Part shown: one piece after another, positions 3,638 to 45,722 of the stretch | How the letters are laid out: every line of letters begins with the position of its first letter | Position numbering within the stretch: the stretch's first letter is position 1 | Source of the DNA: a virus | DNA: 49,399 nucleotides | IMG/VR virus record: IMGVR_UViG_3300002514_000012 | Coordinates: 1 to 49,399 of that record | Reading direction: 5' to 3' (one strand) | Notes under the pieces: model-generated | Told to the model about the DNA's origin: nothing | The model's database searches: none | What the model saw: only the letters and a program-made list of their open reading frames with translations | Translations under genes and position numbers: made by a program

Positions 3638-3645
3638 GAGCTATA

Positions 3646-3652
3646 TATAATA
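3646..3652 (+). promoter_or_regulatory. TATAATA -10-like box before a plus-strand gene
   Basis: TATAATA lies eight bases before the ATG of the basic protein gene, which has AGGTGA as ribosome-binding site between box and start. No convincing -35 sequence is visible. The divergent gap is only 23 bp, so this short region must start transcription of the plus-strand gene. Confidence 0.5.
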
Positions 3653-3660
3653 GGTGAAAC

Positions 3661-12109: not shown

Positions 12110-12115
12110 CTATGA

Positions 12116-20483: not shown

Positions 20484-21153
20484 AATTAATTCGTCTCATA
20501 GGTTTTACAGCTTCTTTGAGGAGAGGTTCAAGATCCCCCCAATGCATATACACTTTTGGTTCTAGACCGTAAGTGTCTCCAGCAGCGTCATAAGTAAGCC
20601 CTTCAAAGATATCTCCCTCCTCAAAAAATCCTGCTACTCCAAACTTAGTATAGCCAGCATTAATAAGGCACAAAACAGATGTTTCGAGGACATCCCAACT
20701 CTCTTCCGTCCATTCAAAAGAAACTAAACCACAGTGTAGCGTTAGCCCAGCTAAAACAAAAGCTTCATAGCCTTCTACATCAATTTTAATTCGAGAGGGA
20801 AATCCGTACTCTTTAGTTAAGCTGTCAAGCGTTCTAGTCGGTACTTTTATAGGGGGGCTCCAATTTATAGAACCTTCTGGTATATACTTATTTCCTAAAG
20901 CGAATCTAGATTTCGTTGCCCAATGCTCTGAAGCAGTTGCTACTCCTCTATTCATATGATCAATATAGAAGGGCTTCTCTTCATCATCCTTATCCGACAT
21001 TAAACAATTAACAAAGGTTACCTGCGGAGGGTGAACTCTTTTACCAAAAAAATCATTAGCATCTACACCAATAACTTTTCCTGTAGGATTATCATCCAAC
21101 CATTGTTTGGAAAACCTCCCACCATTATAACCGATATCAAATAATAAACTCAT
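20461..21153 (-). CDS. FkbM-family SAM-dependent methyltransferase
   Basis: 230 residues. LFDIGYNGGRFS is the glycine-rich motif I, GKVIGVDAND the second strand, and the FkbM signature IKIDVEGYEAFVLAGL appears near residue 120. FkbM proteins O-methylate sugars or small molecules, so this could cap or decorate a glycan residue. It lies between an epimerase and the fucosyltransferase. Confidence 0.82.
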   Translation of the reverse strand: MSLLFDIGYNGGRFSKQWLDDNPTGKVIGVDANDFFGKRVHPPQVTFVNCLMSDKDDEEKPFYIDHMNRGVATASEHWATKSRFALGNKYIPEGSINWSPPIKVPTRTLDSLTKEYGFPSRIKIDVEGYEAFVLAGLTLHCGLVSFEWTEESWDVLETSVLCLINAGYTKFGVAGFFEEGDIFEGLTYDAAGDTYGLEPKVYMHWGDLEPLLKEAVKPMRRINYGMFFAK

Positions 21154-22031
21154 ACTAATATAAAATCCTTAGGATAAAATCCCTCTCTATATGTAAATTC
21201 AGGGATGTCTGGGTGATAGTGTAAAGGGGCGACTACTTTTTTATTAGAAGAACCGCTTAAATATGCAGCCCACCATCCGAAGCTACTTACATGAGACATA
21301 ATGCTGTGATCACACATCATTATAGATCCGAAGTCTTCCATAGTTGTGCCACCTTCTGAGAAAATAAAACTGTCTCCTACTAGGTTCTCTTTACACCATT
21401 GGATGTCCTCTGCGTTATCGTCAGGTGTCCACCTCTTGCCACCTGTAAACACTAAAAATTTTACTCTTTCTCCTTCAAATTGCTTTAACGCTGCGACAAG
21501 ATATTTCCCATAAAAACTCTCTTCAAATGGAATATCAGGACTCCCGTACATACTATCCAATTCTGTGGATGGGTTGGTATGATTAGTGTTATCCCCCCTA
21601 CGAAGGTGAAGACTCACTATAGGGCAATCATGCTTCTTTCTTAAAGCATCAACTGTATCTTTTTGAGCATTTAAATTTCTAGGAGTAAGCTCTTTTTTTA
21701 TTACAGCAGAAAACTCCCCAAAGTAGAAAGTGCTTTGGAAGAATCCTTCAATACTAGCGTTGTCTCCTGTGAGGAAGAAGTGCTCGTCTACCTCCATATG
21801 ATTAGGCTCGTAGTACCTCCCACGGATACTTTCTAAATCGGTGGGTTGCAGAGTCTTAACGGGTATACTAAATTCTCCTAGCAAGCATTCTTGTCCGTGC
21901 CAGGACATATCTGAAAACTTAGGGACTTTAACTTCATAGTTATTTTTTAAACCTAGAGATCTTAAAGCAGCGTACTGAAATAATTGATTCCCTAGTCTTC
22001 CAGTTTCCCCTAATCCAAGAAAGGTAATCAC
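21150..22031 (-). CDS. GT11 alpha-1,2-fucosyltransferase-like
   Basis: 293 residues. GRLGNQLFQYAALRSLG at the N-terminus and VSLHLRRGDN (HxRRxD) in the middle are the two defining motifs of GT11, which transfers L-fucose from GDP-fucose in alpha-1,2 linkage. The C-terminal HSIMSHVSSFGWWAAYL segment is the third conserved block. With the Fcl-like gene in the same operon this supports a fucose- or related 6-deoxysugar-containing product. Confidence 0.88.
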   Translation of the reverse strand: MITFLGLGETGRLGNQLFQYAALRSLGLKNNYEVKVPKFSDMSWHGQECLLGEFSIPVKTLQPTDLESIRGRYYEPNHMEVDEHFFLTGDNASIEGFFQSTFYFGEFSAVIKKELTPRNLNAQKDTVDALRKKHDCPIVSLHLRRGDNTNHTNPSTELDSMYGSPDIPFEESFYGKYLVAALKQFEGERVKFLVFTGGKRWTPDDNAEDIQWCKENLVGDSFIFSEGGTTMEDFGSIMMCDHSIMSHVSSFGWWAAYLSGSSNKKVVAPLHYHPDIPEFTYREGFYPKDFILV

Positions 22032-22969
22032 TGCATATACTCCTTAAACTTATTCTCAGGGTCATACCACCAGGAAGATGAGGTGCAATGCTCCCTGTCT
22101 AAATCTACATCTAAATCGTCCCACGCATAATCCCTCAAATCGCAAGTGGCAATCTCAGTTGGGATATCTCTAGTATCATACTTCTTATGGAGATTCTCCA
22201 ACTTCTCTTTATCAAACACGGAAGTTTTAATTATCTCTATTTTTGCATCCAAGTCTAAATCCATTCCTTCAAAAGAAGCCCCTCCATAAAATCCTATGTG
22301 CGCTGACCTAGCCTGATCAGGCTTCAAAGCAAAAAGACCGTTCTTTTCAATCAATCTTTCTATCTGACCATCATGATCATAATGTTCATGAGGAGAAATA
22401 CGAGAATCGGCATAATGAAAACTATTAAATAATATAGGGTTAGTAAAGTAATGAGGCATGTCATATAATGGTGTCATGTATTTTTTAATATCTTCAACAC
22501 TTACTACCATTGGTGAAGTACATTGAACATCTCCCATTAACAAATTTTCTACACCCTCCTGAGGGTCCTGTCTCCGTTTATGCGCTACACAAAACAATCG
22601 GTCATAGGGTTTTAAATACTTATGATACACTCTGTCACAAAAGCGTAAATAGTCTACGGAAGGGACAATATCCTCTTCCCCTAATACCACATATTCGGAT
22701 GCGTACTCTGCCGCTATCCTATAAGAATCCATAATGTTATAAGCAGCAGGACATGCGCTCATCCTTACCGTGCGGTAAGTTACTTTTACCTTTTCTTCGC
22801 CATGCGTCTCCTTAAATCGAGATATAACTGTATCAACATCAGGATCAGGATCCACCTCTACAAAAAAGTGAACTATGTAATTAGGAAGTTCTTTATTCTT
22901 CTGTAATTGATCTAAGTAAACCGCTAAAAACTCAGGTCTTTTCCACGCTGTAACTGCTATAACATTCAT
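22028..22969 (-). CDS. Glycosyltransferase, GT-A-like
   Basis: 313 residues. The N-terminus NVIAVTAWKRPEFLAVYLDQL begins a GT-A Rossmann domain and VVLGEEDIVPSVDYLRF provides a DxD-like acidic motif (EED). HFFVEVDPDPDV is another acidic cluster. A later ISPHEHYDHDGQ region is His/Asp rich. It resembles GNT-I/GT2-type enzymes but neither family nor substrate is secure. Confidence 0.7.
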   Translation of the reverse strand: MNVIAVTAWKRPEFLAVYLDQLQKNKELPNYIVHFFVEVDPDPDVDTVISRFKETHGEEKVKVTYRTVRMSACPAAYNIMDSYRIAAEYASEYVVLGEEDIVPSVDYLRFCDRVYHKYLKPYDRLFCVAHKRRQDPQEGVENLLMGDVQCTSPMVVSVEDIKKYMTPLYDMPHYFTNPILFNSFHYADSRISPHEHYDHDGQIERLIEKNGLFALKPDQARSAHIGFYGGASFEGMDLDLDAKIEIIKTSVFDKEKLENLHKKYDTRDIPTEIATCDLRDYAWDDLDVDLDREHCTSSSWWYDPENKFKEYMQ

Positions 22970-23910
22970 TAGAAGCTCTCCAGGTTACCTAACACATTAT
23001 AACTCATTAATTCGGCATATTCTTCCAAGTGGGTTAAGGCAATCTCAGGGGAGGTAGAGTATAGGGAAGCCTTTTCAGACTTGGAGCAGTCTAATAAATA
23101 CCCGTCTTGGTTTAAAATACGAGGAGTTACATACTCCACTTGTAGATCAGATTTGTACTTCTTAATAACTTCTGTAATCTCTAACGGATTCCAATGCTCA
23201 CTTACTGCGTTATACACACCCGACTTAGGCTTCTTTTCCATAATATTAAAGATGGCATCCTTGGCATGGTGCAAGGATAGGTAGGGACGCTTACCTGTTC
23301 CTGGCTTCCAAATAGTTACAGGGTTTCCTATGATGGCATTCCACAAGAACTTATTTGTAACAGTGTGGAATCTCATCCCTGGGCTGTACCCAAATATCGT
23401 TCCAAATCTAAAAACATAAACCTTCGGAATCCCACAAGAAAGAACGGGGTCCTCAGCTTGGTACTTATACTTTGCATACGGACTTTGGGGGTGAATATGC
23501 TCTGTATCCTCAGCACGAACTGCGTCCGAATCTATAGGACCATAAACACTAGCACTAGAAAGAAACACAAAACACTTTGCCCCTGCTTTGGCTGCTGCTT
23601 CAGATACCTTTATGGCTCCTACATAATTAACTTCCCTGGTTAAGCCATCCTTATCAATAGTCTCTCCCGCATTTACAGTTCCAGCCAAGTGAATAACGGT
23701 ATCCACTCCCTCCATTACATCATCCAAAGAATCAGATATATCTCGTTTAACGAGTTTAATTTTATTTGGAAGGTTAAACAGGCTGGCGTATCTACTGGTA
23801 ACAAAACTATCTACAACTACGATTTCATCAAAGGCTTTTAATCTACTATCATTCAATAAAGATGATCCGATATGGCCCACACCACCTGTAATTACAATTT
23901 TCTTACTCAT
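22969..23910 (-). CDS. NAD-dependent nucleotide-sugar epimerase
   Basis: 313 residues. ITGGVGHIGSSL loop, RDISDSLDDVMEGVDTVIHLAG, FLSSASVYGP and SPYAKYK (intact YxxxK). A complete extended SDR, closest in feel to UDP-glucose/galactose epimerases. Its ATG follows an 8-bp overlap with the aminotransferase-like gene, and its stop forms TAATG with the next gene. Confidence 0.84.
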   Translation of the reverse strand: MSKKIVITGGVGHIGSSLLNDSRLKAFDEIVVVDSFVTSRYASLFNLPNKIKLVKRDISDSLDDVMEGVDTVIHLAGTVNAGETIDKDGLTREVNYVGAIKVSEAAAKAGAKCFVFLSSASVYGPIDSDAVRAEDTEHIHPQSPYAKYKYQAEDPVLSCGIPKVYVFRFGTIFGYSPGMRFHTVTNKFLWNAIIGNPVTIWKPGTGKRPYLSLHHAKDAIFNIMEKKPKSGVYNAVSEHWNPLEITEVIKKYKSDLQVEYVTPRILNQDGYLLDCSKSEKASLYSTSPEIALTHLEEYAELMSYNVLGNLESF

Positions 23911-24508
23911 AATAATACTCCTTAAATATGGAGTGCTTCCTTAGATCCCCATAATCCTCCTCAGGCATATCTTCGTTGTGCTTAGGAAGAAAAAGAAGTC
24001 GTGATAAACCAGCGGTCGCTTGCTCAGGGGTCATGTAAACATGATGACCTAAAACATTTATATCATCCTCATCAATGGGAACCCCCTCTTTTCTCCCATC
24101 AAAACGGGCTCTTTTAAACCACTCTACGGCTTCCACATCATCCGTTAAAATCATACCTCCTCGACCAGCGTTTAGAATCTTACGACCATGAAAAGAAACA
24201 CACATATGCGTATCAGGCTCGTACATTCCAGAGGTGAATCTTTTAGCTGCATCTACAATGGGATACGGGTCTAAGGTGTAAGATCCCTTCCACCATTTGT
24301 CTACAAACTTAATCTTACCACCTGCTCTAATAACAGCGTTAGGTACAGACACATAGGTATTAGCAGGAAGCTCAACCTTCTTCACTTTTAAATACTCACA
24401 ACAGAGAAGTAGCGCATTGCTACAACTCTCTACAGCTACAGCATATGGAGCCCCTGTGTACTTGGCGACTTCACTCTCAAAAATTCTTACTACATCATAA
24501 GCGTTCAT
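23903..24508 (-). CDS. Half-length DegT/DnrJ/EryC1/StrS aminotransferase
   Basis: 201 residues, about half the normal 370-400. It has VAVESCSNALLLC (cofactor phosphate loop), VDAAKRF (Asp86 for the pyridine ring) and SFHGRKILNAGRGGMI with Lys110 at the Schiff-base position. The whole C-terminal small domain of the usual fold is missing or replaced by about 60 residues. The frame is intact and overlapped on both sides, so it is not an obvious decayed fragment. It may be a compact aminotransferase or need a partner. Confidence 0.7.
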   Translation of the reverse strand: MNAYDVVRIFESEVAKYTGAPYAVAVESCSNALLLCCEYLKVKKVELPANTYVSVPNAVIRAGGKIKFVDKWWKGSYTLDPYPIVDAAKRFTSGMYEPDTHMCVSFHGRKILNAGRGGMILTDDVEAVEWFKRARFDGRKEGVPIDEDDINVLGHHVYMTPEQATAGLSRLLFLPKHNEDMPEEDYGDLRKHSIFKEYYYE

Positions 24509-24888
24509 ACTAATTCAAAATTAAACTTACTCTTTTCGAATAACGCGATACTTGCCTTATTTTCTTTTTTTATTTTAGCTCTTGCGTTGGGGTATAACTT
24601 TTTAAGCTCCTCAAGCATAAACTTTCCTATGCCTTTCTTCTGATAAGAGGGATCGGTACATACTCTAACATCATCATCCACCACTCCCACAAATCCACAG
24701 GTGAACCCATTATAGAGGCAGACATAGTAATTCTCTTCATGTTTTTCCATAAACTTATAATGATCTTCTATAGAAATTTTATCTTGGCTCATGAAGCCGT
24801 CTTTGGTTGCGGGGTGAATGCGAAGGTAATAAATATACCTGTAGTAAAGTTCCTCGTTTTGAACCAATCGCAAATTTACCATATGCAT
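24505..24888 (-). CDS. GNAT-family acetyltransferase
   Basis: 127 residues. CGFVGVVDDDVRVCTDPSYQKKGIGKFMLEEL contains the acetyl-CoA loop (QKKGIGK). The last strand-helix (KENKASIALFEKSKF) is the normal GNAT ending. It probably N-acetylates an amino sugar made by the aminotransferase next to it. Two starts are possible, two codons apart. The inner one has GGGA six bases upstream. Confidence 0.82.
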   Translation of the reverse strand: MHMVNLRLVQNEELYYRYIYYLRIHPATKDGFMSQDKISIEDHYKFMEKHEENYYVCLYNGFTCGFVGVVDDDVRVCTDPSYQKKGIGKFMLEELKKLYPNARAKIKKENKASIALFEKSKFNFELV

Positions 24889-25679
24889 TCCCTATCCCCA
24901 AATTCAGTTTCTTCATTTAACCAGTACTCCCGAAGATAAGCCCTTTGTAACTCAAAACCAAAATAAGGATGCATAGAGGTTCCTATATCAATGTAAGTAT
25001 TTTTATTAGAATGCTCGAATAATTGATGGCATAATATATTACTTAAAGACGCAGCGGAAAAAAGAAACACACAATCCTCTAAAGAATTATCATCAATATA
25101 TGCTTTTATATCTTCCACTAAGTTATAATTATTAACTAAGCAGTTTCTACCTACAACAAAGTGCTTAAGAATATTAAAAGGAAGATCTCTTAATTGAGCG
25201 TCTTCATTGCACACGAACACTAGCTTCCTCTGGGCAAACACGGGAACCAATTCCTCCACAAAATGTTTATAATTAGCATTTAACCACAAATTCGCCCAAG
25301 TAAGATTGTGGTCACCTTCACCCATGAACTCAATCTGCCAATCAAACTGCTCGTCTGTGCCGCAGCATCTACAGGTTAAACCTTTATAATAATTCGGAGC
25401 ATTATACTTAAATGCGTCTACCAAACGATCCCTATAAAAAGAATCTTTATCAGGATTGAATTCCTTGAGATCTCTATCGGGATAGATAATATTGTAGTCT
25501 TTGTCATTACAGAAAGTACCTTCCTCACTTAAGGTCAACTTCTGATTTTTTAAGATATACAGTTCACCATCCGAAAATCTACTAAAGGAAAAGTTTTCGC
25601 CTTCTTTAAGTTTGGTAAGGAGAAGGTCGAAGTCTCCTTTAAAGCTCTTGGATGATTTTTGTAATTTTTTCTGCTGCAT
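24876..25679 (-). CDS. Putative GT-D-fold glycosyltransferase (DUF1792-like)
   Basis: 267 residues from the ATG with GGAG six bases upstream; two earlier in-frame codons (TTG, ATG) are less well placed. FSFSRFSDGELYIL near residue 33 matches the FSRFGDGE motif of GT-D/DUF1792 glycosyltransferases. The rest (CRCCGTDEQ, later VFLFSAASLSNIL) is family-poor. It overlaps the WecB-like gene by 41 bp, an unusually long overlap. Family assignment is tentative. Confidence 0.6.
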   Translation of the reverse strand: MQQKKLQKSSKSFKGDFDLLLTKLKEGENFSFSRFSDGELYILKNQKLTLSEEGTFCNDKDYNIIYPDRDLKEFNPDKDSFYRDRLVDAFKYNAPNYYKGLTCRCCGTDEQFDWQIEFMGEGDHNLTWANLWLNANYKHFVEELVPVFAQRKLVFVCNEDAQLRDLPFNILKHFVVGRNCLVNNYNLVEDIKAYIDDNSLEDCVFLFSAASLSNILCHQLFEHSNKNTYIDIGTSMHPYFGFELQRAYLREYWLNEETEFGDRECIW

Positions 25680-26634
25680 TTCCATCTCCAAATTCGCAGG
25701 GTTCCGTTATATTACAAGATTTAGCGGGATCAAACCTCTTCACCAGTTCGGCAGGGGAAGAGCACATTACATTTGTTAAACATGACCTCTCCGTAGAGGT
25801 TCTACAAACATAACACCTCTTTTTGAAATAATTACATTCTTCCTGAATTCCTCCACTGTCAGAAATTACACAGGAACAAGCAGCTAACCTTACTTTCATT
25901 TCAGTATAATCAAAAGGCTCACACACTTTTACCCCCTTAAGAAGATTCCTGTACGCCTGAACATTTGGATTGGGGTGCATGGGGAAAACGAAATCATAGG
26001 CTTTATGTTTCCTGGCTAACTTAGATATGGCAGAAAACCACTCTTTCATATCTTTGTGATTCTCCCTCCTGTGCATAGTAATTAAAACTTCGTTATTGGA
26101 TTTAGGTATAGATGGCATATCCTTTATATTATCAATAACCGTGTTTCCTGTTATGTATATTTTATCACCGATATATCCCTCCTTTACTAGATTCATTTTA
26201 TCTTGAGCCCTAGGACAAAAATGGATCGACGCTAAAGAAGAAATCATCCGTCTATTAACTTCCTCAGGGAAAGGGGAAGCTTTATCGTTAGTCCGTAAAC
26301 CTGCTTCTAAATGCATCACGGGAACACCTTTATGAAAAGAAGCCAGAGCCATCCCAAAAGCGGCTGTAGTGTCTCCTTGCACTAAAACATGTGTAATATC
26401 ATCAAATACATGAAAAGAAGAAAGAATGGAACGAACTATTGTATCCAAGCGGTTCAGGGGGTAGATCTTATCCTCAAAGACTTCAATGGTCTGATCGCTA
26501 TCTACAGGAAGGAGATCAGTGTGTTGCCTTATCCTTACACTTTTATAAGAGACTCTATTCCTTCTAAACTGCTTCAGAAGGGGCTGAATTTTAATATATT
26601 CAGGTCGCGTTCCGTATGCTACTAATATTCTCAT
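25639..26634 (-). CDS. wecB: UDP-N-acetylglucosamine 2-epimerase-like (WecB)
   Basis: 331 residues. YGTRPEYIKIQPLL, VQGDTTAAFGMALASF, HLEAGLRT, PFPEEVNRRMI, GNTVIDNI, TMHRRENH, VFPMHPNP and VISDSGGIQEE are the successive conserved blocks of the WecB family. These enzymes convert UDP-GlcNAc to UDP-ManNAc, often toward ManNAc-containing glycans. It is slightly short (usual about 370) but all catalytic blocks are present. No ManNAc dehydrogenase (WecC) is next to it. Confidence 0.9.
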   Translation of the reverse strand: MRILVAYGTRPEYIKIQPLLKQFRRNRVSYKSVRIRQHTDLLPVDSDQTIEVFEDKIYPLNRLDTIVRSILSSFHVFDDITHVLVQGDTTAAFGMALASFHKGVPVMHLEAGLRTNDKASPFPEEVNRRMISSLASIHFCPRAQDKMNLVKEGYIGDKIYITGNTVIDNIKDMPSIPKSNNEVLITMHRRENHKDMKEWFSAISKLARKHKAYDFVFPMHPNPNVQAYRNLLKGVKVCEPFDYTEMKVRLAACSCVISDSGGIQEECNYFKKRCYVCRTSTERSCLTNVMCSSPAELVKRFDPAKSCNITEPCEFGDGNAAEKITKIIQEL

Positions 26635-27392
26635 TTCACCTCTTTAACGGTCTGCCAACCATTCTCTATAGCATAAGACACAAAGCTATTTCTGAGTTTA
26701 CAAAAATAAGCGTAGTCTTTCCCTCCAGCATTTGAAGAGGCTACCTCGTCATCACCTAATTCAAACGGTCGGAGAGAACTCCACTTGCTTTTATCACTCT
26801 GAGGGTGAGGAGGGCAGTAAGTTTTTAACCCACCGTGTCGTTGAGCCATGTATGATAGCTGCATATCTTCACAATTTTCTAAAGTAAAAGGTATCTCTCG
26901 CCACAAATGGTTCAGATGATCTCTTTTTAAAAACCAAGCATGACCTACCAAATCCGCTTCTTCAACCTCTTCATTAGCACTCGGCCATCCAACTCTAGTA
27001 TGTGGACAGGCATACCCTGGGATATCATAAACTCGGCTATGCATAATGACCCCCGCTCCCCCCAAAATGCCCTCATGCGTATCCATAGTTTCTAAGCAAT
27101 TATCGAACCATTTCTCTCCAGGGATGGTATCGTCATCAAAAAAAGCTAAGTATTTCGACGCTGTGAGAAGACCTAATGCAAACCTCCCATGGTACTTAAA
27201 GTTATGAGAAGAACCAATACATGCGGTAATTCCTTCGATTTTAGAGGGATCAAACCCCTCATTTTCTGCATGAGCGTTCTTCCAGACCCAAATATCCTTA
27301 GGGGGGCAACTTTGCGCTAAAATAGCCTTCACCTGTTTCTCTAGGTTTTGGGGGCGACGATAGCAGGTTAGTATAGCAGTAATATCACTCAT
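26631..27392 (-). CDS. GT2-family glycosyltransferase
   Basis: 253 residues. ITAILTCYRRPQNLEKQVKAIL at the N-terminus and LAFFDDDTIPGEKWF (DDD, metal and nucleotide binding) are typical of GT2. ENCEDMQLSYMAQRHG is the usual ED acid-base motif region. No membrane segments, so it is a soluble enzyme. It overlaps neighbours by 4 and 8 bp. Confidence 0.85.
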   Translation of the reverse strand: MSDITAILTCYRRPQNLEKQVKAILAQSCPPKDIWVWKNAHAENEGFDPSKIEGITACIGSSHNFKYHGRFALGLLTASKYLAFFDDDTIPGEKWFDNCLETMDTHEGILGGAGVIMHSRVYDIPGYACPHTRVGWPSANEEVEEADLVGHAWFLKRDHLNHLWREIPFTLENCEDMQLSYMAQRHGGLKTYCPPHPQSDKSKWSSLRPFELGDDEVASSNAGGKDYAYFCKLRNSFVSYAIENGWQTVKEVK

Positions 27393-28239
27393 TAGGCAAG
27401 TAGCTCTTGATCGCTGGGATACTCTCCTCTAAGGTAAGTCTCTCTAACTCATCTACTAACTCCTCTCCTGCGAGAGTAAACCAAGACTCAGTACAAGCCC
27501 CATAAGTTTGAGTAGTAAGAACATTCAAACCTAAAATCCGTGCCTCAGTAGCTAAACGACTACATGACTCAGGGGTAAGAGGTAGAAAAACCAAAGCTGA
27601 ATATTCGGAAAGTTTTTTGAGGAACTGCTCTCGGCCCATCGGGCGAAGGAGGTCGAAATCGTAAAAGTGATTGGTACACAGGGTTACTGCGCCTCGCGTG
27701 TTCTTGATTTCCTTGGGGCTATCAACGACAGCGAACTTTCGAGTCTTAGGGGGTAGCTCTTCAGAAAGTAGTTCTCTAAAGAAGGAGAACTCTTCTTTAG
27801 AGTAGGGCGTTGTAGACATACTAATGAAATTGCCTTTTACCTCATTTATATCAAACAGCTTTTTCTGAAAATCCGTCTGAAAGAAAACCGCTTTAGCGTT
27901 TTCATAGAACTCCAACTGCCCCATGTACTCTTCGGGGACCTTAGCTTGTTGGAAGACATAAGGATTCCTTCCATTTCCTGGTCCCGTAATAAATTGGTAG
28001 TCATGCTCAATAATAATATAATTCTGATATTTGGCTAAAGCATCTAAGTGCTTAGATTCTACCAAACTTCTATTCCCGACAATATAAAAGGAGTCTTCCT
28101 CGATCTCCTCTATATCGTAATAAGATAAAAGCTCTAAATCAATATCGAGGTACTCTCGAATAGCCGCATCAGAATACTCGGCTCCACCCGCAAGCTTATC
28201 CCCATCAAAAAAATCAGACAAATAGTATATTTTAGACAT
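27385..28239 (-). CDS. GT-B-like glycosyltransferase
   Basis: 284 residues. AGGAEYSDAAIREYL at the N-terminus looks like the start of a GT4-type acceptor domain, and the C-terminal part (ALVFLPLTPESCSRLATEARILGLNVLTT) matches the GT-B donor-binding motif in which a conserved Glu (here in TEAR) contacts the nucleotide sugar. The enzyme is short for GT4, and its middle carries no clear motif. Confidence 0.7.
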   Translation of the reverse strand: MSKIYYLSDFFDGDKLAGGAEYSDAAIREYLDIDLELLSYYDIEEIEEDSFYIVGNRSLVESKHLDALAKYQNYIIIEHDYQFITGPGNGRNPYVFQQAKVPEEYMGQLEFYENAKAVFFQTDFQKKLFDINEVKGNFISMSTTPYSKEEFSFFRELLSEELPPKTRKFAVVDSPKEIKNTRGAVTLCTNHFYDFDLLRPMGREQFLKKLSEYSALVFLPLTPESCSRLATEARILGLNVLTTQTYGACTESWFTLAGEELVDELERLTLEESIPAIKSYLPNE

Positions 28240-28945
28240 ATTGCGCTCCTTCTCTATTAAATACTGCTGCTGGATAAGGTCTAAAGACCTCGTTTACTAG
28301 TTTCTTTTTCATTGCTTCAGCAAGTGAATGAGGGAAGCCTTGATTTCCCATGTATAGCTCACACCCAGCGATTAATTGAGCTATCTCGTATCCATCCTCT
28401 ACCTCATAATAGTCCACTTTAAGGTGGGGGAAGGTGTAACAAAAATACTCGTACTCCTTCTTATAACCTATAAATACTGCTTTCTCTAGAACTGAGTTAG
28501 ACACCTGCTGTTCCCAGAAAGAGTAGTTTCCATGATACCTGCAACTGCGGCTAATGATAATCTTTTTACCGTCTAGCGTTTTCGGAGGAACAGTGATCCA
28601 AGGCTCGTCTCTAAGTTTAGGATCTAAGCCAAACGCTGCTAGATGGGAGTCACTAAGATTATTATACTTCACATGCTTTCTGAACTCGTCAAGGTTATGA
28701 GTGACAACCTCTCCTTGCCAGTATTTAACATCCTCTATGTAATCCTGCTCGTACAGGATTTTGGTAAGATGCGTAATACCTAAAGCGTTAAGCTTTGTGT
28801 GGCTGTGTTGAGACCAATTAACTAAAGGTTCATTCTCTCCTCCCTTCGGGTCGAGATAGAGCGTCCCTTTTCCAAGAGCTTTAATAACGGGCAAGGAAAA
28901 AATAATGTCCCCCATATCCCCAGAGTGTTTATAAGTTAGTGTCAT
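28232..28945 (-). CDS. GT9/heptosyltransferase-like protein
   Basis: 237 residues. KHSGDMGDIIFSLPVIKALG is the typical N-terminal block of ADP-heptose/GT9-like transferases, and YMGNQGFPHSLAEAM is the donor-site block near the end. The middle is short, so it may be a trimmed GT9-like or O-linked-type transferase. Soluble, no signal peptide. Substrate unknown. Confidence 0.68.
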   Translation of the reverse strand: MTLTYKHSGDMGDIIFSLPVIKALGKGTLYLDPKGGENEPLVNWSQHSHTKLNALGITHLTKILYEQDYIEDVKYWQGEVVTHNLDEFRKHVKYNNLSDSHLAAFGLDPKLRDEPWITVPPKTLDGKKIIISRSCRYHGNYSFWEQQVSNSVLEKAVFIGYKKEYEYFCYTFPHLKVDYYEVEDGYEIAQLIAGCELYMGNQGFPHSLAEAMKKKLVNEVFRPYPAAVFNREGAQYV

Positions 28946-30176
28946 TTTTATCAGATATCCTCTTAACTAAATCCCCAACTGCCTTCCCCTGAATCACCTC
29001 AGCCAAACCTGCCTTCAGGTTTACAGTTTGTAATCTAAAGCATTCCCTGTACAGATCTAACCTATGCTTTACAACCTTATTTAGATCAAAATACTCATCC
29101 GTAATGGCTTTAAGATTTCGTCCCATCTCCTCTCTATGCTTTTTGTTATTAATAACTTTTAACAGCACTCTCACCCACTCTTTCGGGGGGGCTTCAGGGT
29201 CAATGAGATACCCCGTCTGACCATTAACGATTGTTTCATCATAGCAACCCACATTAGATGCAATTAAGGGGATTTGGTACTTCCCGCACTCTGCTACCTT
29301 AATTTCCGATTTTGAATCATTAAAATCATTCATTTGGAGAGGAGCGATTGCTAACTCCATACGAGAGAACATTACACCATAATCCCTTGGCCCCAAAGCG
29401 TTAAAAATATTCCAATTATTAGTCCCCTTGAATCCCCGCAATAGAATCCGTTTATAGTTATCCCACACATCATGCTGCCAGTCTCTAGCTTGCCCTGGCT
29501 CTAAGGGAGGGGCTCCATAAAAATCCCAAGAGACCCTGTGAGCCCCTACTCTCTGATTTATAAAATGAGGAACCCCTGCGAACTCTTTAACATCCTCCTC
29601 ATGGTGGATACCCCCTGCCCACCCAATTCTAACAAGATTCTTATTAGGTATCTCTTCCTTAGGAACATTCCAACCAGGAAGAGTGTAATCAATAGCGTTC
29701 TTAACAATAGCTAAAACCCCACCACAATAAGGCTTAACTCTTTCAGCAAACTTTTTCTGAGTAACGGTTACTAGATCAGCATGGCTATAAATAAACTTTG
29801 TTATCTCGTAAAGGTTCTGCTCCTCATACACCTTCTTTAGTCTATGACCATCGTACAAATCAATCAACAGATCGTCTGTGTCATAGTGGAAGAACTTCCC
29901 GAATTTTTTAGAGATCCCACATAACCTAGCGGTGTAGGGACCACCGTAATTAGCAATATTCTGAGTTACCACAATATCACACCATTTGAGGTTATGGAGA
30001 TCTTCTTCCTCTCCCAGCTTACCGTTTTCCTCGTTGAGATTTAGTGGATTCTTATCAAAACGGATCTCAACCTGATCGGGGTAAAGTTGAGCAAGCTTTT
30101 GGTAAGGATCCCATGCCCTATAAAAAGAACAGCCACCATCGTTAGCAGGGCTCACAAGTATTTTTAATTTATCCAT
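28929..30176 (-). CDS. GT4-family glycosyltransferase
   Basis: 415 residues. An N-terminal acceptor domain (VSPANDGGCSFYRAWDPY) and a C-terminal GT-B donor domain with RIGWAGGIHHEEDVKE and KSEIKVAECGKYQIPLIASNVGCYDE (the E-x7-E-type region) fit GT4. It is the first gene of the sugar island in the direction of transcription. No Shine-Dalgarno sequence lies just before the ATG. Instead a hairpin ends four bases upstream. Confidence 0.82.
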   Translation of the reverse strand: MDKLKILVSPANDGGCSFYRAWDPYQKLAQLYPDQVEIRFDKNPLNLNEENGKLGEEEDLHNLKWCDIVVTQNIANYGGPYTARLCGISKKFGKFFHYDTDDLLIDLYDGHRLKKVYEEQNLYEITKFIYSHADLVTVTQKKFAERVKPYCGGVLAIVKNAIDYTLPGWNVPKEEIPNKNLVRIGWAGGIHHEEDVKEFAGVPHFINQRVGAHRVSWDFYGAPPLEPGQARDWQHDVWDNYKRILLRGFKGTNNWNIFNALGPRDYGVMFSRMELAIAPLQMNDFNDSKSEIKVAECGKYQIPLIASNVGCYDETIVNGQTGYLIDPEAPPKEWVRVLLKVINNKKHREEMGRNLKAITDEYFDLNKVVKHRLDLYRECFRLQTVNLKAGLAEVIQGKAVGDLVKRISDKNDTNL

Positions 30177-38016: not shown

Positions 38017-38977
38017 GCTTTAGTAGGCTGTACCCTTCCATAATATCCTCACGCTTCAGGTTTGTCTGAGCAGCATCAATATAATCTTCAACAATCATTT
38101 CATTTATAGAAAACAAATCCCGTTTCGGTTGATAAGAACTTAAATGATCTTCATCAAAGGAGGGCTTCCATTTTATATCCAAGAAGCCTACTTCCAATTC
38201 ATCATAAGGTATGGGGGAAGCATCACTATCAATAAGTATTCGGAGTAGAGTAAACCAGTTGGGATCGTTAATATATTCTAACTTGTCTGCAATCTGGCTG
38301 TGATCTACAACAAGATGCCTTGGCCCACTTTTTACTGGTTTAAACTCTACAGATCCATCTGAGTATAGGAGTCCGTAGAGGTTTTCTTTTCCACACTCTC
38401 CGAAGTTGGTAGTATAAGGGGTTCCGAGGATAGTAACATTATCTTTTTGAGAATACTTATGAATGTGTCCCAAATAAGTACATGTAGTAAAATTACCAAG
38501 CATGATATGAAAATCAGCGTCCCCCACGGAATTAAGGCAACCACTGTAACCAAAGTGGCCGAATACCGTATAGCCTGGAGTGATAGATTCCAAGTGTCTT
38601 TTAATTGTTTCTTCATTTTCATAATGAGGGATAAATGCCCTCTTTGTTTTGTAATCAAACCATGTTTGAGTAACCACCTTAGCGTGATAACTAAAGAGGC
38701 TTAAGGCTGTAACACCATCGTCAGCTTTGGTCTCACTATCATGATTTCCTCGTAAAATAATTAGAGGTATTCTTTTTTCGTAAAGAAAATCAACAACCTC
38801 TTTTAGAGCAAGGAGTACCGTAGGAGTAGGCTTCCTATGCATCATTAGGTCTCCCAAGATAATCACCTCTTCAGGTTCCTCCTCTATTATGATACTCAAT
38901 ACGCATCGAGTTTGAGCCTTTAAAATCCCCAACGGCTTAGTATTAAAATGAAGATCTGTTAATAATAAAGTTTTCAT
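38006..38977 (-). CDS. Mre11/SbcD/gp47-like nuclease
   Basis: 323 residues. The metallophosphoesterase motifs appear in order: LTDLHF (Asp8, His10), ILGDLMMH, LRGNHDSE, HFGYSG and LGHIHKY. It degrades DNA ends with its ATPase partner, whose gene overlaps it by 11 bp. The tail (from about 240) is the partner-binding region. Confidence 0.9.
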   Translation of the reverse strand: MKTLLLTDLHFNTKPLGILKAQTRCVLSIIIEEEPEEVIILGDLMMHRKPTPTVLLALKEVVDFLYEKRIPLIILRGNHDSETKADDGVTALSLFSYHAKVVTQTWFDYKTKRAFIPHYENEETIKRHLESITPGYTVFGHFGYSGCLNSVGDADFHIMLGNFTTCTYLGHIHKYSQKDNVTILGTPYTTNFGECGKENLYGLLYSDGSVEFKPVKSGPRHLVVDHSQIADKLEYINDPNWFTLLRILIDSDASPIPYDELEVGFLDIKWKPSFDEDHLSSYQPKRDLFSINEMIVEDYIDAAQTNLKREDIMEGYSLLKHED

Positions 38978-40059
38978 ACAATCTTTCCCTCTTTAAATTC
39001 AACAGGGGCTCCTTCACCAAATGATCCCCCTATCTCTAAATCAATACTAAAAGGTACATCAAAGTGTATATTAAAGTGCTTCTTGATATAAGGATAATTA
39101 ACTAACTCATCGTATACAATTTCGCATACTATAGACTCCTCCTCATGAGGACAAACTATCTCAATACTATCGTGTACAGTTGAGACTATTCGAGCAGAGA
39201 GGTTATCATTAAGAAAACGACGAGAGATACCCAATAAACCACACAACAGGATATCAGATGCGGTACTTTGAATGGTAAAATTGAGTCCTTGCCTGAACGC
39301 ACGGTTGATGACAGAAAAATCAGAAGACCCCACATCAGGCAGGTTCCTACGCCTCCCAAAAATAGTATACGCATATCCATTATCCTTTATAAAGTTATTA
39401 ACAAATTCCATGTACACAAAGACTCCTGGGTACACATCTTTGTAGCTATCAATAATATGTTCAGCCCTTTTCATAGGGATCCGCATGGTTTCAGCGAGAT
39501 TAAAGGGTCCTCCCCCATACACAATTAAGAACGAAACGGTCTTGGCGATTTGTCGTTCCTCTTTGGTAATCTTCTCCTTGTTAAATAGGAGCTTCGCAGT
39601 ATAGGTGTGGAGATCTTGCCCAGAGTTAAAAGCGTTTTGCATATTCCCCTCCTTGGCTACATGGGCTAAAACTCTAAGCTCCATGGCTGCGTAATCGACC
39701 GTGACGAAAGAATTTCCTGGAGGAGCTACGAAGATACTTCTGATGTTGGTGGAGGTCTCTCTTGGTAAGGTGTGGAAAGACACGCCCATAGGTTTAGCCG
39801 CATTATATGCAGCGCAACTTAAGCGACCAGTAGCTGTCCCGTCTAGTCTGTAATCTACATACACTTTATCAGAGCCATTGTACTCCAAAGCGTTCTGGGT
39901 TCCTTTGATGTAAGTTTTCTCTAGCTTCTGAGACTTGCGTAGCTCTAAGAAAGAACTTAGGAAATCCCTAGCAGCGTGTAGTTCTTTAGTAGACTTAGCC
40001 TCGATTACAGACTTGCTAATCCTCTTCCCCTCATCCCTGTGATTCCACTTTTTACCCAT
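38974..40059 (-). CDS. Family A DNA polymerase, polymerase domain (third piece)
   Basis: 361 residues. Palm motif A VTVDYAAMELRVLAH (Asp122), O-helix R169-x3-K173-x3-F177-x3-Y181 as in Klenow R754/K758/F762/Y766, and motif C TVHDSIE (His296, Asp297). No exonuclease domain is present; the two preceding genes supply it. Start ATG overlaps the previous stop by 8 bp (ATGGGTAA) with only a weak GAG-type ribosome-binding site. The polymerase core appears complete from thumb onward. Confidence 0.9.
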   Translation of the reverse strand: MGKKWNHRDEGKRISKSVIEAKSTKELHAARDFLSSFLELRKSQKLEKTYIKGTQNALEYNGSDKVYVDYRLDGTATGRLSCAAYNAAKPMGVSFHTLPRETSTNIRSIFVAPPGNSFVTVDYAAMELRVLAHVAKEGNMQNAFNSGQDLHTYTAKLLFNKEKITKEERQIAKTVSFLIVYGGGPFNLAETMRIPMKRAEHIIDSYKDVYPGVFVYMEFVNNFIKDNGYAYTIFGRRRNLPDVGSSDFSVINRAFRQGLNFTIQSTASDILLCGLLGISRRFLNDNLSARIVSTVHDSIEIVCPHEEESIVCEIVYDELVNYPYIKKHFNIHFDVPFSIDLEIGGSFGEGAPVEFKEGKIV

Positions 40060-40534
40060 TTCTTTTACTCAGTTCGGATTCAATTTGCTCTAGAAGAATT
40101 TTAAGTGTGGGTGCTGAGACGGAGGGGGAGCCCTTCGCAGTTTTGTCAGGGGGATACAAGCCAAAGCTATCCTCCCTGGTGTATAATATGTCAATCAGAT
40201 CGTTGTTTGAGGATAAATTGTCAGTATTTTTTACACCCTCAAAGGTATAAAGGGAGTCCTCTTTGTTCACATTAACCCCCTTAAGAACTCTGCCTAACTC
40301 CTCTAGCTTATCTGAACCGATATGGAGCCCCTCATACTCCATTTCCGTAAAGACGGGAGCGGCAGGAGACAACAGATTCTCATACATATAATGCATCTTC
40401 AACTCTTTAAGCTTCTCTTCAAAAAGATGGAACAATTTTAAAGTAAAGTAAGAGTCCTTAGCATTACCCTCACAACAGTCCTCATAGTTTATGTTCTCCC
40501 AATCAAATGAGTTAGGATTATTAACCGTAAGCAT
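40052..40534 (-). CDS. DNA polymerase middle piece: exonuclease motif III and thumb linker
   Basis: 160 residues. It opens with the end of the 3'-5' exonuclease domain: GNAKDSYFTLKLF contains motif III with Asp27, although the Tyr expected four residues earlier is Gly23. EMEYEGLHI and a SSNNDLIDILY...SPSVSAPTLKILLEQ stretch match the Pol I linker/thumb just before the palm. A strong GGAGG site 7 bases before the ATG lies inside the end of the preceding gene. The sequence continues directly into the next gene with no missing region. Confidence 0.82.
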   Translation of the reverse strand: MLTVNNPNSFDWENINYEDCCEGNAKDSYFTLKLFHLFEEKLKELKMHYMYENLLSPAAPVFTEMEYEGLHIGSDKLEELGRVLKGVNVNKEDSLYTFEGVKNTDNLSSNNDLIDILYTREDSFGLYPPDKTAKGSPSVSAPTLKILLEQIESELSKRNG

Positions 40535-41556
40535 TAGAAGTCCTCCAGTTCTCCAGGGAAGTAAAGTTTCACTAAGTCCATCAAACTCTTGGGGACATTT
40601 TCATTTATAAGGTGATGCATAATCTTAGTATCCCACACATTCTTAGTATAAATACCATGATTCACTAGGAATTTCAGATCAAACTTAGCGTTGTGAAATA
40701 CCTTGCGCGTCATAGGGTTCTCCAAAATCTTACGCAAAGCAACCCACATCTTAGCGTAATGAGGTTGCCCTTTTCTGAAGGGAGAGTCCTTATGGTCACA
40801 AGGTATAACCCAGTTGCTATCACCAGAAGAGATTGCTATGGTTTGGATCTTATCCGTGAGAAAGTTAAGCCCCGTAGTCTCAATGTCAACAGCCATAGTA
40901 ACCCCTTCTACCTGCAAGGTCTCGACTAGAGATTCTACATCTTTAATACTACTTAAGACTTTGTAGGTAAAATCACCGTCACTAGTCTTGCCTAGCACAT
41001 ATTTCTCGTACCCATTTTTAAGGTCTGCCTCAAACAAATACTCATGTCGAGGCTCCTTGGCTACGCTATACGGGTGAAAAATGGGGATAACTGTGCATGT
41101 ATGGCCCTCGCTGGTTTCATAGGGGAAAGCCTTGCCTCTTTTATCGGTAATGCCGCTCTTCTTAATGAGCATCTTCATTGCCAAGTTCCCACACACGAAA
41201 ACTAGTATAGGTTTAACGGCATCAATAGTAACCTCTAGGTGCTGCCTACATATTTTCATATTATCGGGAGACATGTCTACTTCCTTTACGGAAGGGCACT
41301 TGATCGCAGTAGAGAAGACGCACTTATAAGGGAAGTATCTCTTAATGGTCTCTTTCTCTCGGTCTGTAAAAGGGAATACTTTACCGAACCTAAATCTATA
41401 AGACTCAGACAAGAAGAGAACATCCCCTTTATCTATAGATTCATGATCAAAAACGGAGTGGCAGGGCTTGTTTTGCTGTAAAATACTACAGCCCTCACAT
41501 AAAGGATTACCATAAGAAGACTTATGATCACAATACAGTTTCTCTAAGCTAGTCAT
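40534..41556 (-). CDS. UDG-like iron-sulfur domain fused to DNA polymerase exonuclease (first piece)
   Basis: 340 residues. Residues 1-190 are a uracil-DNA glycosylase superfamily domain: Cys20, Cys23, Cys87, Cys103 have the spacing (3, 64, 16) of family 4 4Fe-4S UDGs, and FHPYSV (His161) is the HPxS-like motif. The first active-site motif (GExPG in family 4) is changed to SESYRFRFG, so glycosylase activity is doubtful. Residues 220-340 carry exonuclease motif I DIETTG (Asp224, Glu226) and motif II HNAKFD (Asp293). Phage SPO1-type polymerases also have an N-terminal UDG-like domain. Confidence 0.85.
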   Translation of the reverse strand: MTSLEKLYCDHKSSYGNPLCEGCSILQQNKPCHSVFDHESIDKGDVLFLSESYRFRFGKVFPFTDREKETIKRYFPYKCVFSTAIKCPSVKEVDMSPDNMKICRQHLEVTIDAVKPILVFVCGNLAMKMLIKKSGITDKRGKAFPYETSEGHTCTVIPIFHPYSVAKEPRHEYLFEADLKNGYEKYVLGKTSDGDFTYKVLSSIKDVESLVETLQVEGVTMAVDIETTGLNFLTDKIQTIAISSGDSNWVIPCDHKDSPFRKGQPHYAKMWVALRKILENPMTRKVFHNAKFDLKFLVNHGIYTKNVWDTKIMHHLINENVPKSLMDLVKLYFPGELEDF

Positions 41557-41572
41557 TCGTCTATAATAGGTT
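41557..41572. promoter_or_regulatory. 16-bp divergent promoter region
   Basis: Only 16 bp separate the polymerase gene (minus) from the sigma-like gene (plus). TATAATA on the plus strand (41562-41568) is followed by four bases and a GTG start. Read on the minus strand the same bases are TATTATA, five bases from the polymerase ATG. Both starts could be served by one symmetric AT-rich box. Confidence 0.5.
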
Positions 41573-41914
41573 GTGTCGAAGTCTCATTATATTAATAATA
41601 AAGAATTAGAAAATCTTATAAATTTATATAAGGAGGATCAGGATAAATACGGGGACGAGTTATTTGCGATGTTTGATATACTTATCACAAACATCATGGA
41701 TTCATTTGGGTTTGAAGTAGAGAAAGATGATGCCAAGCAGGACTGCTTCTTATTAATCCTCAAAACTCTACGAAATTTCGACACCAGCAAGGGGAGTGCC
41801 TTTAATTTCTTCACTACCATCATAGTGAACAACCTTAAACTGGTCTACTCAAAGAATAAAAAGTACACAGAAAAGTTAGACCAGTACAGGAAGCTCAAAC
41901 AAAGAGACCTATGA
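41573..41914 (+). CDS. Short sigma factor-like protein (gp55/sigma-70 region 2-like)
   Basis: 113 residues, GTG start. EVEKDDAKQDCFLLILKTLRNFDTSKGSAFNFFTTIIVNNLKLVY resembles sigma-70 region 2 (core binding and -10 recognition). Region 4 is absent, as in T4 gp55, which reads -10-only late promoters. It is preceded by TATAATA four bases from the start. It would direct host RNA polymerase to phage promoters; assignment rests on the region 2 pattern. Confidence 0.7.
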   Translation: MSKSHYINNKELENLINLYKEDQDKYGDELFAMFDILITNIMDSFGFEVEKDDAKQDCFLLILKTLRNFDTSKGSAFNFFTTIIVNNLKLVYSKNKKYTEKLDQYRKLKQRDL

Positions 41915-42622: not shown

Positions 42623-43129
42623 ATGAAAGATGAATACGATTTATCAAAATTAAAAGAAAAAAAAAGAATTAATAGTAGAACTAAAGGAAGTTCATTTGAA
42701 AGAAAAATAGCAAAGCTACTTAATGAACAGTTTGATACTAAAGAATTTAGTAGATCACCTGGGTCAGGAGCATTTGCTACAACTCATAAACTACCTAAGC
42801 ACTTACATATATACGGAGATTTAATAACACCGCAAAGCTTTAAGTTCTGTATTGAATGTAAAAAAGGGTATAACAAAGAGAATATTTATAGCTTATTAGA
42901 TAATAGCTCTGCCTTGTGGGGTTTTATTAATCAATGTGAAAAAGATTCACAAAAATGCGACAAGCTACCTTTAGTACTGTTCCAGCAGGACCGTAGACCT
43001 ATCTTAGCTATTACTTGGGGAAATATTTTTGATGCATACATCCCCCACATAACAATTGGGTCTGGAATAGAGTACGCTATCTACAAATTAGATGATCTAC
43101 TAGCATCTAATCAAGCTAAGTGGTTTTAA
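42623..43129 (+). CDS. Resolvase-like PD-(D/E)xK nuclease
   Basis: 168 residues. GSSFERKIAKLLNEQF, then RSPGSGAFA, GDLITPQSFKFCIECKKG give the D...ExK catalytic core of Holliday junction resolvase-like phage endonucleases. It probably resolves branched DNA before packaging. Strand is plus, with the 3' end overlapping the 868-residue gene convergently by 14 bp. The N-terminus is Lys-rich (KEKKRINSRTK). Confidence 0.75.
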   Translation: MKDEYDLSKLKEKKRINSRTKGSSFERKIAKLLNEQFDTKEFSRSPGSGAFATTHKLPKHLHIYGDLITPQSFKFCIECKKGYNKENIYSLLDNSSALWGFINQCEKDSQKCDKLPLVLFQQDRRPILAITWGNIFDAYIPHITIGSGIEYAIYKLDDLLASNQAKWF

Positions 43130-45722
43130 TTAGTCCCACCAGTTGTTCAAGGAGTTTACCTTGATTATTAATATACTGGTATAAGATACTTGCATCCTCC
43201 CTAGATGCCTCCCCTACGACTTCGTTAATTTTAGCTCGTTTTTCAAAAGAATACTTAGGCTGCACCAGACTCCACCTTGTATTTGCCTTCCCACCTGCCC
43301 CCCATGTTCTACTTTGTCTAAAGCTTAATCTATCTGCTGCGTCTTCTCTGTTAGAAAGAAGTAACGCAGCCCCTGGATGACCATGTTCTCCTCTTGGGGA
43401 TGGCATTTCTACATCCCAAGTATCATTTAGGATCCCTTTTGTGGCATCATTAAGAGTTCCCATGTGTGGACCTGTCATTGTTCTCATAGAAGGAAGGTCT
43501 TGTACAGTTGAGGCTTCTTCATGATCCACACCCCCCACAAATTGAGCAGCATACATCACCCACAGTCTAGATTGAGCAGCTTTAGCTGTTAACTCACCCT
43601 TCTTATTTCTATCGTTTGAATCTTGTGTAACCCTTAAAGCAGTTAGGTATCTTTTCAAACCTTCATTAACTTTAGCCATGTTAACAGGATCAGAAAGATC
43701 TAGTTCCCTGCCTTTTTGATCCTTAAACAGTCGGAGAATAGGTCCGTGCTCTATGTCTTCGAAAGTAGAGCTTTTAGTTATAATATCTTTAATAATACCC
43801 ATCTGAGCCTTGCCGTCACTAGAGGTTATATTACCTTTTTCTGGATCGAATACTTCCAGCCCCCCTTGAGGGAATAGAGTATCTATGTCAGCTTTAATAT
43901 CTTTAAGCTCACTATTGTAATCTCTAACTCCCTGTTCCTCAGCTTCACTTATACCTAATCTCTTACGCACTGTAGCATCATAACCTTCCTTAACCTCCGT
44001 GTCAGCTATACCATCTACAACATCATCCAACCTATCACTTTCACCTAAGGTGCTCTCAGTATATGGGACAGCTTTAGTTTTTAATCCGTCTCCCAAAAAA
44101 TATACTTCTTGGTTTAGATCATCATCACTTAGACTATGAATATCCATCCACAGTTTCTTAGAGTCTGCATTCTTTAGTAGATCTCGTAAAGTAGCTTTGT
44201 TTTTTTTAGCGTTCCACTTCACTCCCGCATTAGCATGAGCTTGTTTAGCTCGCTCCTCCGCAGATTTACCTCCTTTAGAAGACATAAAAATAAAATTATT
44301 ATCCGCTGCGAATCCTTGGCCCTTCTCCTTGCCTACATTTACAACTATATCAGGGTCTAAAGCCTTAGTTAATGGCTCTTGCAAGCGACCTAACCTCGAA
44401 AAGAAACCCATAACTTCACTTGAATCAATACCAATATAATCACTTAGTTTATCAGCGACATAGGCTACCGCTGCGCCTTCCTCGTCAGTTGAACCCGTCT
44501 TTACAGAAGAGATCCACTTGCCGAAAGAAGCCCTAAACAAGTTAATATCTTTAATAACAGTCTTTCGAACATACTCTGATAGTTTATTGAGTGCGTCTTC
44601 ATTACCATCCATTAGCTCATGTATTACCCCTAGAGCTACTAAAGCAACTCCCGCAGACTCACTAGTTTTCCCTATATAATCATTAATACTATGTTGATCA
44701 ACCTTACCCCTAGGAGCATCGGCTATTGCTGTATCACAAATTTGCTCTGCCCTTTTCATGAACCACCTATCAGCAGGGCTAGGAGTGAAACGAATTCCTT
44801 CGGAATTATCTTCACCCGTTAAAGCTACTATTTTTCCCCCCACATCCCTCTTAATAGAGTTAGACAAAAGAGTACAAGCTTTATCTTTAGCAGCTTTGGA
44901 GTTAAAATTACTACCAAAACTGTACAAATTCTCCATGGATTGAAGAGCACTCTCTAATAGGTTAGCCTTAACTTGAGGGAGGACTTCAGCAACTTCTAAT
45001 CCCTCTGTTGCTGGGTTTATCTTTACAAACTGTAACCTACTTAGTTTTCTTTCTAAAGACTGTTGCCTGTTGCCTGTGATATAGGAAGCGGGACCTTGAA
45101 CACCAACCCCCTCCGTCCTAGCCCACCCCTCATCAGCAGCGTCAGGTTGATCCGCAGCATTCCGAATGAGACCTACTAGGTTTTGGAGGGACTGCTTGAC
45201 AAGAGAGGTGTTTTCTACTCCTAGCAAATTACCAGCATTCATAAGGGAAGTATCCACATCCCCATCAAGCATAGGGAGACCTTCTTCTACCTGAGCTAAA
45301 GCATTTTTGTATTGCCCGAATGCTTTAGGGTTTACATTCCCAGCAGCGGAAATAATCATTGTGTTGGTTGTCTGACCTGGGGCTCTAAAATAAACAGCCG
45401 CACCAACTTCGCCCCCTACTTCCTTGGGTTGAATGTTTACAACATAAGCCTGATTCTCAACAGGGAGTGCCATATTGGCTGCGTTCTGCCCTTCTGGAAC
45501 CTCAACCGCATTAAGAGACCCCGCCTTTATCTGCTCCCCAGACTTAACTACGCCACCACTATACCCCTCAAACTCTTGTTGAAGCTTTACCTCTATCTGT
45601 TGAGCCTTTTCTGGGTTCTGGCGTTGAAGTTCCTGAAATTCTCCCCTCTCATCTATTCGAATAACTAGCTTTCTTTTTTTTAATTGGGAGTAACTTTCCA
45701 GCAGTTCTTCAAAATAGTTCAT
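43116..45722 (-). CDS. Large protein of unknown function, possible virion protein
   Basis: 868 residues, no recognised enzymatic motif. It begins MNYFEELLESYSQLKKRK, a T4-like head-targeting style leader with LLE, and has long helical, Ala-rich middle parts. A Lys-rich stretch (KWNAKKNKATLRDLLKNADSKKLW) and an acidic region (EEQGVRDYNSELKDIKADID) are visible. The large size, position beside tail genes and the leader suggest an internal or structural head protein. TATAATA lies four bases before its ATG. Confidence 0.72.
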   Translation of the reverse strand: MNYFEELLESYSQLKKRKLVIRIDERGEFQELQRQNPEKAQQIEVKLQQEFEGYSGGVVKSGEQIKAGSLNAVEVPEGQNAANMALPVENQAYVVNIQPKEVGGEVGAAVYFRAPGQTTNTMIISAAGNVNPKAFGQYKNALAQVEEGLPMLDGDVDTSLMNAGNLLGVENTSLVKQSLQNLVGLIRNAADQPDAADEGWARTEGVGVQGPASYITGNRQQSLERKLSRLQFVKINPATEGLEVAEVLPQVKANLLESALQSMENLYSFGSNFNSKAAKDKACTLLSNSIKRDVGGKIVALTGEDNSEGIRFTPSPADRWFMKRAEQICDTAIADAPRGKVDQHSINDYIGKTSESAGVALVALGVIHELMDGNEDALNKLSEYVRKTVIKDINLFRASFGKWISSVKTGSTDEEGAAVAYVADKLSDYIGIDSSEVMGFFSRLGRLQEPLTKALDPDIVVNVGKEKGQGFAADNNFIFMSSKGGKSAEERAKQAHANAGVKWNAKKNKATLRDLLKNADSKKLWMDIHSLSDDDLNQEVYFLGDGLKTKAVPYTESTLGESDRLDDVVDGIADTEVKEGYDATVRKRLGISEAEEQGVRDYNSELKDIKADIDTLFPQGGLEVFDPEKGNITSSDGKAQMGIIKDIITKSSTFEDIEHGPILRLFKDQKGRELDLSDPVNMAKVNEGLKRYLTALRVTQDSNDRNKKGELTAKAAQSRLWVMYAAQFVGGVDHEEASTVQDLPSMRTMTGPHMGTLNDATKGILNDTWDVEMPSPRGEHGHPGAALLLSNREDAADRLSFRQSRTWGAGGKANTRWSLVQPKYSFEKRAKINEVVGEASREDASILYQYINNQGKLLEQLVGLIKTT

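Follow-up and report, generated by a model that had tools for sequence, protein, structure and literature searches.

Three conserved phage genes, collinear with one family A DNA polymerase, divide its exonuclease site and its polymerase domain

Three adjacent genes in the DNA of an uncultured phage, here called A, B and C, very probably encode one replicative polymerase of family A (Pol I-type) as subunits that are translated separately and would assemble non-covalently, with B as the bridge. The window analysed is the opening 49,399 nt of an IMG/VR virus record that is 110,937 bp long and may be incomplete. Compared at the level of sequence, the genes are three independent open reading frames (ORFs) that are conserved, under purifying selection and collinear with a single polymerase; their physical assembly, its activity and the bridging role of B are what we infer. 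Pol I-type polymerases are textbook single-chain enzymes. In this phage lineage the sole recognised replicase is stably encoded by three genes, one cut falling within the exonuclease site and the other within the polymerase domain. The features discussed below are listed in Table 1.

Table 1. Positions of the polymerase genes and of other features in the window
Feature	Position	Strand	Description
Gene A	41556-40534	minus	340 aa ORF; family-4 UDG-like domain, then 3'-5' exonuclease; ends short of motif III
UDG-like domain of A	41000-41515 (residues ~15-185)	minus	Cys20/23/87/103 invariant in the alignment of relatives
Gene B	40534-40052	minus	160 aa ORF; Exo III Asp27 and the ~100 residues that open the polymerase domain; proposed bridge between A and C
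Gene C	40059-38974	minus	361 aa ORF; polymerase domain with motifs A, B and C; N-terminal extension of ~20 aa
A/B junction	40532-40546	minus	GGAGG 7 nt before the B ATG, inside the end of A; TAATG stop/start overlap
B/C junction	40052-40059	minus	ATGGGTAA, 8-nt start/stop overlap, without a good ribosome site
CCTATTATAGACGA	41557-41570	minus	directly before the A ATG, facing a divergent plus-strand ORF at 41573; promoter-like
Glycan island	10408-30176	one strand	DegT aminotransferase, several NAD-dependent epimerases, UDP-GlcNAc 2-epimerase, glycosyltransferases, FkbM methyltransferase

The coordinates, lengths and frames given for the three pieces by the original prediction proved exact when the ORFs of the window were checked: A and C share one frame and B lies in another. 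Exonuclease motifs I and II (Exo I and II), motif III (Exo III) and the polymerase motifs, which it had placed on A, B and C, respectively, were likewise located in the translations. A single PHROG polymerase profile, phrog_17, was covered in order and without overlap by A (positions 537-785), B (797-927, E 9.5e-7) and C (930-1234). Gene order and the single strand were kept in relatives holding all three genes. Median dN/dS was 0.12 for A, 0.07 for B and 0.05 for C, and by this sequence measure purifying selection acts on all three. Two contigs from other metagenomes, L002 and L003, differed from the window by 2 mismatches each over 8,613 and 7,051 nt. One-base errors are possible in metagenomic contigs, but the chance that the split is a sequencing or assembly error is negligible, as L002 was identical to the window across A, B and C and the split was present in all relatives. 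One-base errors at both junctions, the finding that the original prediction had named as fatal to it, are excluded by the split being kept in all distinct relatives.

Relatives were gathered from IMG/VR scans and are uncultured marine phages; further scans were seeded with divergent members, and duplicates were removed. Close relatives shared 67-75% identity in C. All 81 distinct A-B junctions and all 82 distinct B-C junctions were split and none was fused, so that the single full-length gene which the original prediction had advised seeking in related phages was looked for and did not appear. Scans with family-specific patterns, of which the best 80 matches each were taken, yielded no single-chain intermediate, only more split members and one unrelated single-chain PolA (L258). 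The A-B junctions were 1-nt overlaps in 43 of 81 cases and carried an insert of 151-2403 nt in 38. At the B-C junctions (n=82) the genes overlapped by 8 nt (55), 4 nt (18), 23 nt (5), 26 nt (2) or 1 nt (1), and one had an insert. In the relative L063 a 2OG-Fe(II) oxygenase gene parts A from B, and C is separated from B by a DUF6445 gene; further A-B inserts encode glycosyltransferases or unknown proteins, often in antisense orientation. When 69 concatenated A+B+C sets were placed on a tree, well-supported branches forced no fewer than 10 changes of the overlap state, which indicates that inserts come and go at a site that was already split. Judged from these sequences, the split is common to the whole phage family and is a fixed lineage trait.

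The same junctions bear on whether the pieces are fused during translation. Programmed frameshifts at both junctions, yielding some or all of the protein as a single chain, would suit the window, where the genes share 1 nt at one junction and 8 nt at the other, and the retention of B-C overlaps in nearly all relatives. They are nonetheless very improbable, given A-B inserts of up to 2.4 kb, whole genes at both L063 junctions, a ribosome site for B in the window, and a frame of C relative to B that was +1 in 57 junctions, +2 in 19 and 0 in 2. Because all relatives are split, many of them with inserts, and differ in B-C frame, both a sequencing error and a conserved frameshift fusion are excluded. 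Of the two outcomes that the original prediction had offered, a fusion made by two opposite frameshifts is contradicted by the A-B inserts, the L063 genes and the differing frames, and a reassembly of three subunits is supported by the universal split, the inserts and the varying B-C frame, the complex itself being deduced from these.

Introns or inteins could instead rejoin the pieces in insert-bearing relatives, with the window as an intron-less remnant. The inserts do occupy one site, and most of them finish with an ATATAG string ahead of B. We regard this explanation as extremely improbable, since no Rfam family, introns included, reached its gathering score in 13 insert-bearing loci, no homing endonuclease was found among 10 insert genes tested against Pfam, the inserts carry ordinary genes (2OG oxygenase, DUF6445, glycosyltransferase and unknowns), many of them antisense, and both the A stop and the B start are retained. 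No splicing element was seen at the junctions, and with the genes of the window overlapping at both of them (1 and 8 nt) the statement of the original prediction that no intein or intron lies between the pieces holds. An intron defined by ATATAG and an in-frame splice at the A stop was considered and dropped, as the in-frame look holds for any insert by construction. A homing endonuclease origin of the split was also rejected, none being present between the pieces in the tested inserts.

Gene A matched PF01612 (2.3e-18) and, weakly, the UDG family PF03167 (1e-5), with Exo I (DIETTGLN) at residue A224 and Exo II (HNAKFDLKFL) at A288. An AlphaFold2 model of A (pLDDT 80) matched Klenow, DnaQ-fold nucleases and the family-4 UDG structures 4zbx/4zby in Foldseek, the last with TM 0.54-0.60 normalised by target. 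The exonuclease motifs of A had thus been described correctly beforehand, but its N-terminal UDG-like domain had not been mentioned. Compared with family 4 UDGs, A has the four [4Fe-4S] cysteines and the UDG fold; it lacks the GEAPG motif, where the aligned strings read LS[DE]S, and the motif 2 Asn, with no Asn before KC. Since these two elements are not kept, an active glycosylase in A is doubtful. The cysteine pattern points to a [4Fe-4S] cluster, and such a cluster may be present in A, a phage polymerase subunit, even if it has no glycosylase activity.

The remaining part of the exonuclease site lies on B, whose Exo III aspartate is found in GNAKD (B23-27). The four acidic metal ligands that motifs I, II and III contribute to a DEDDy 3'-5' exonuclease are D224, E226 and D293 of A and D27 of B, and in alignments of relatives all were invariant though split over two genes. 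The tyrosine four residues before the motif III aspartate was glycine in every sequence examined. The original prediction thus rightly placed motif III on B, but did not mention that its usual tyrosine is missing. Given the change from tyrosine to glycine, proofreading may be weak or absent even in an assembled complex. A profile of 45 B proteins also matched residues 160-292 of Klenow chain 1kln (E 3.3e-7); the division of domains in the original prediction stands as located, except that the polymerase residues on B went unstated there. With Exo III and the opening part of the polymerase domain both on it, B is expected to link A to C. Modelled alone with AlphaFold2, B reached no confident fold (pLDDT 64, pTM 0.28), and this poor model gave weak Pol I matches in Foldseek (E ~0.5). 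The lack of a confident fold would be expected of an obligate partner and, with a poor single-chain model, argues weakly for one. In one relative (L027, 5584-6002) B itself is broken into ORFs of 92 and 57 aa in different frames, by assembly error, decay or a further split.

Gene C matched PF00476 (4.3e-75) beginning at model position 60, and Klenow chain 1kln at residues 303-575. Polymerase motifs A (DYAAMELR, C122), B (RQIAKTVSFLIVYG, C169) and C (VHDS, C295) of family A enzymes were all present, with the catalytic aspartates D122 and D297 at columns that do not vary; no one chain held the whole polymerase domain in any of the distinct relatives examined, where it starts on B and continues on C. 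When aligned with single-chain enzymes of named phages, the first cut fell in the variable loop that links Exo II to Exo III, and the second where the first segment of the polymerase domain gives way to the thumb. Around the B/C junction the split family had ~40 extra residues relative to the single-chain phage enzymes. The pieces are thus collinear with one Pol I-type protein, as had been predicted, but the alignment is not gap-free. The 110,937-bp record yielded no second PolA, PolB or PolC; as it may be incomplete, another polymerase could still lie elsewhere.

C might also be a stand-alone polymerase free of an exonuclease, with A and B serving as separate DNA-binding or nuclease accessories and the Pol I architecture not being rebuilt. 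The loss of the Exo III tyrosine, the confident fold of A alone and the ability of other genes to part A from B, which then has its own promoter-like element, are all compatible with this. We consider it unlikely, because the four metal ligands are invariant despite their division over A and B, B is under strong constraint, and the second half of B aligns with the very start of the polymerase domain that is missing from C (PF00476 from 60; Klenow 160-292). In the preferred arrangement of separately translated subunits, A would supply the UDG-like domain together with motifs I and II of the exonuclease; the motif III aspartate and the opening part of the polymerase domain would come from B, and the remaining palm, fingers and thumb from C. 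The three would bind without covalent linkage, B joining A to C, and the proofreading site would form only within the assembled A-B-C complex.

The junction signals of the original prediction, a strong GGAGG at A/B and a weak site at the B/C overlap, are both in the sequence. In the window A would be translated first, B through GGAGG/TAATG coupling and C through coupling across ATGGGTAA; the 8-nt B/C overlap suggests such translational coupling. A ribosome site preceded B in 32 of 40 overlapping A-B junctions, versus 1 of 35 insert-bearing ones. In most insert-bearing relatives CTATNATATATAG was found 2-3 nt ahead of the B ATG, between B and a divergent gene, and a similar element lies in the window ahead of A and of an SNase gene (3278-3637). 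These near-palindromic CTATNATATATAG-like elements stand 2-4 nt before starts that have no ribosome site (window 3640-3655 and 41557-41570; upstream of B in L004, L009 and L030). They often sit between divergent genes, and a PWM of the promoter-like element marked few genes in the window genome. Position and pattern would fit a promoter with a near-leaderless start. If this reading is true, B-C forms a transcription unit apart from A in insert-bearing phages. The ORF divergent from A (41573-41914, plus strand) had a sigma-70 region 2 match (5.5e-4) below the Pfam cut-off and is a possible phage sigma factor.

Phage replicases in separate cistrons are known from gp43A/gp43B of Aeromonas phages 25 and 44RR; the products of phage 25, a split T4-like polymerase, co-purify and have polymerase activity (PMC2988022), a precedent for the assembly proposed here. 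Those enzymes are of family B and in two pieces, between which lies either a seg homing endonuclease or an untranslated intercistronic stretch, and ours is of family A, in three pieces, with unrelated inserts. The OM43 phages MEP401 and MEP402 are also marine phages with a family A polymerase in separate ORFs: their PolA lies in two ORFs, an arrangement conserved in most group I relatives, and a small ORF divides the PF00476 domain, for which the authors suspected an intron (PMC10580990). They have two pieces, the first with the exonuclease and the N-terminal part of PolA, in contrast to three here. Other phage polymerases in pieces include the PolB of jumbo phage MIJ3, which carries an intein (PMC6892783), and the split minimal Pol III alpha of group 2.2 jumbo phages, of another polymerase family (PMC7824862). 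Rhodothermus phage RM378, a far-T4 phage whose terminase, portal, capsid and sheath resemble those of the window phage, also appears to have a polymerase in two pieces, but by motif it is of family B, and the pieces lie far apart in the genome. Its exonuclease-like p024 (FIDIET; L336 21996-22937) and polymerase p092 (DFTSLYPS; L337 29587-31155) are distant genes, and a suspected split PolA in RM378 was rejected, the split being of PolB type.

The same domain order as in A-B-C, with full-length alignment, was found in single-chain UDG-exonuclease-PolA enzymes of Lysinibacillus phage LysYB1, Bacillus phage phi18, Pseudomonas phages SM1 and PaBG (PMC7412058 for PaBG) and Rhizobium phage RHph_I4. 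These enzymes have ~800-970 aa, carry the Exo III tyrosine (YxxxD) in most of those aligned and lack the extension at the B/C site. Among the matches listed, the best identity of C to named phage records was ~32%. Searches of the open literature, which takes in few subscription journals, turned up no Pol I-type enzyme split three ways with cuts in both the exonuclease site and the polymerase domain. More tentatively, and with doubt prevailing, the enzyme might be a family A replicase that obligately consists of three chains, the first of its kind: B would complete both polymerase and exonuclease, recruitment of A would switch proofreading on or off, and the exonuclease would have moved off tyrosine-assisted (DEDDy) chemistry.

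The cuts mark natural split points for a split Pol I, of use in switchable or reassembling polymerases. They also mean that automatic annotation can miss a phage exonuclease or label the middle piece hypothetical, and they raise the question of why a fast-replicating virus retains a fragmented replicase.

The terminase, portal, capsid and sheath place the phage in the T4-like/far-T4 sphere, with 33% identity of the terminase to that of RM378. A 130,604-bp relative (L249, QCKN01000003.1, the same contig as L037) comes from the single-cell genome of Prochlorococcus sp. AG-409-P03, which suggests a cyanobacterial host for that relative. The window also holds ~20 kb of nucleotide-sugar/glycan genes, a large surface-glycan island for a 110-kb phage. 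Similar short leaders, MNSYDRIYSLLVE or MNYFEELLESYSQ, open several unrelated-looking proteins, in the inserts of L009, L030, L042 and L049 and at 43116-45722 in the window; they may resemble the capsid-targeting leaders of T4 internal head proteins.
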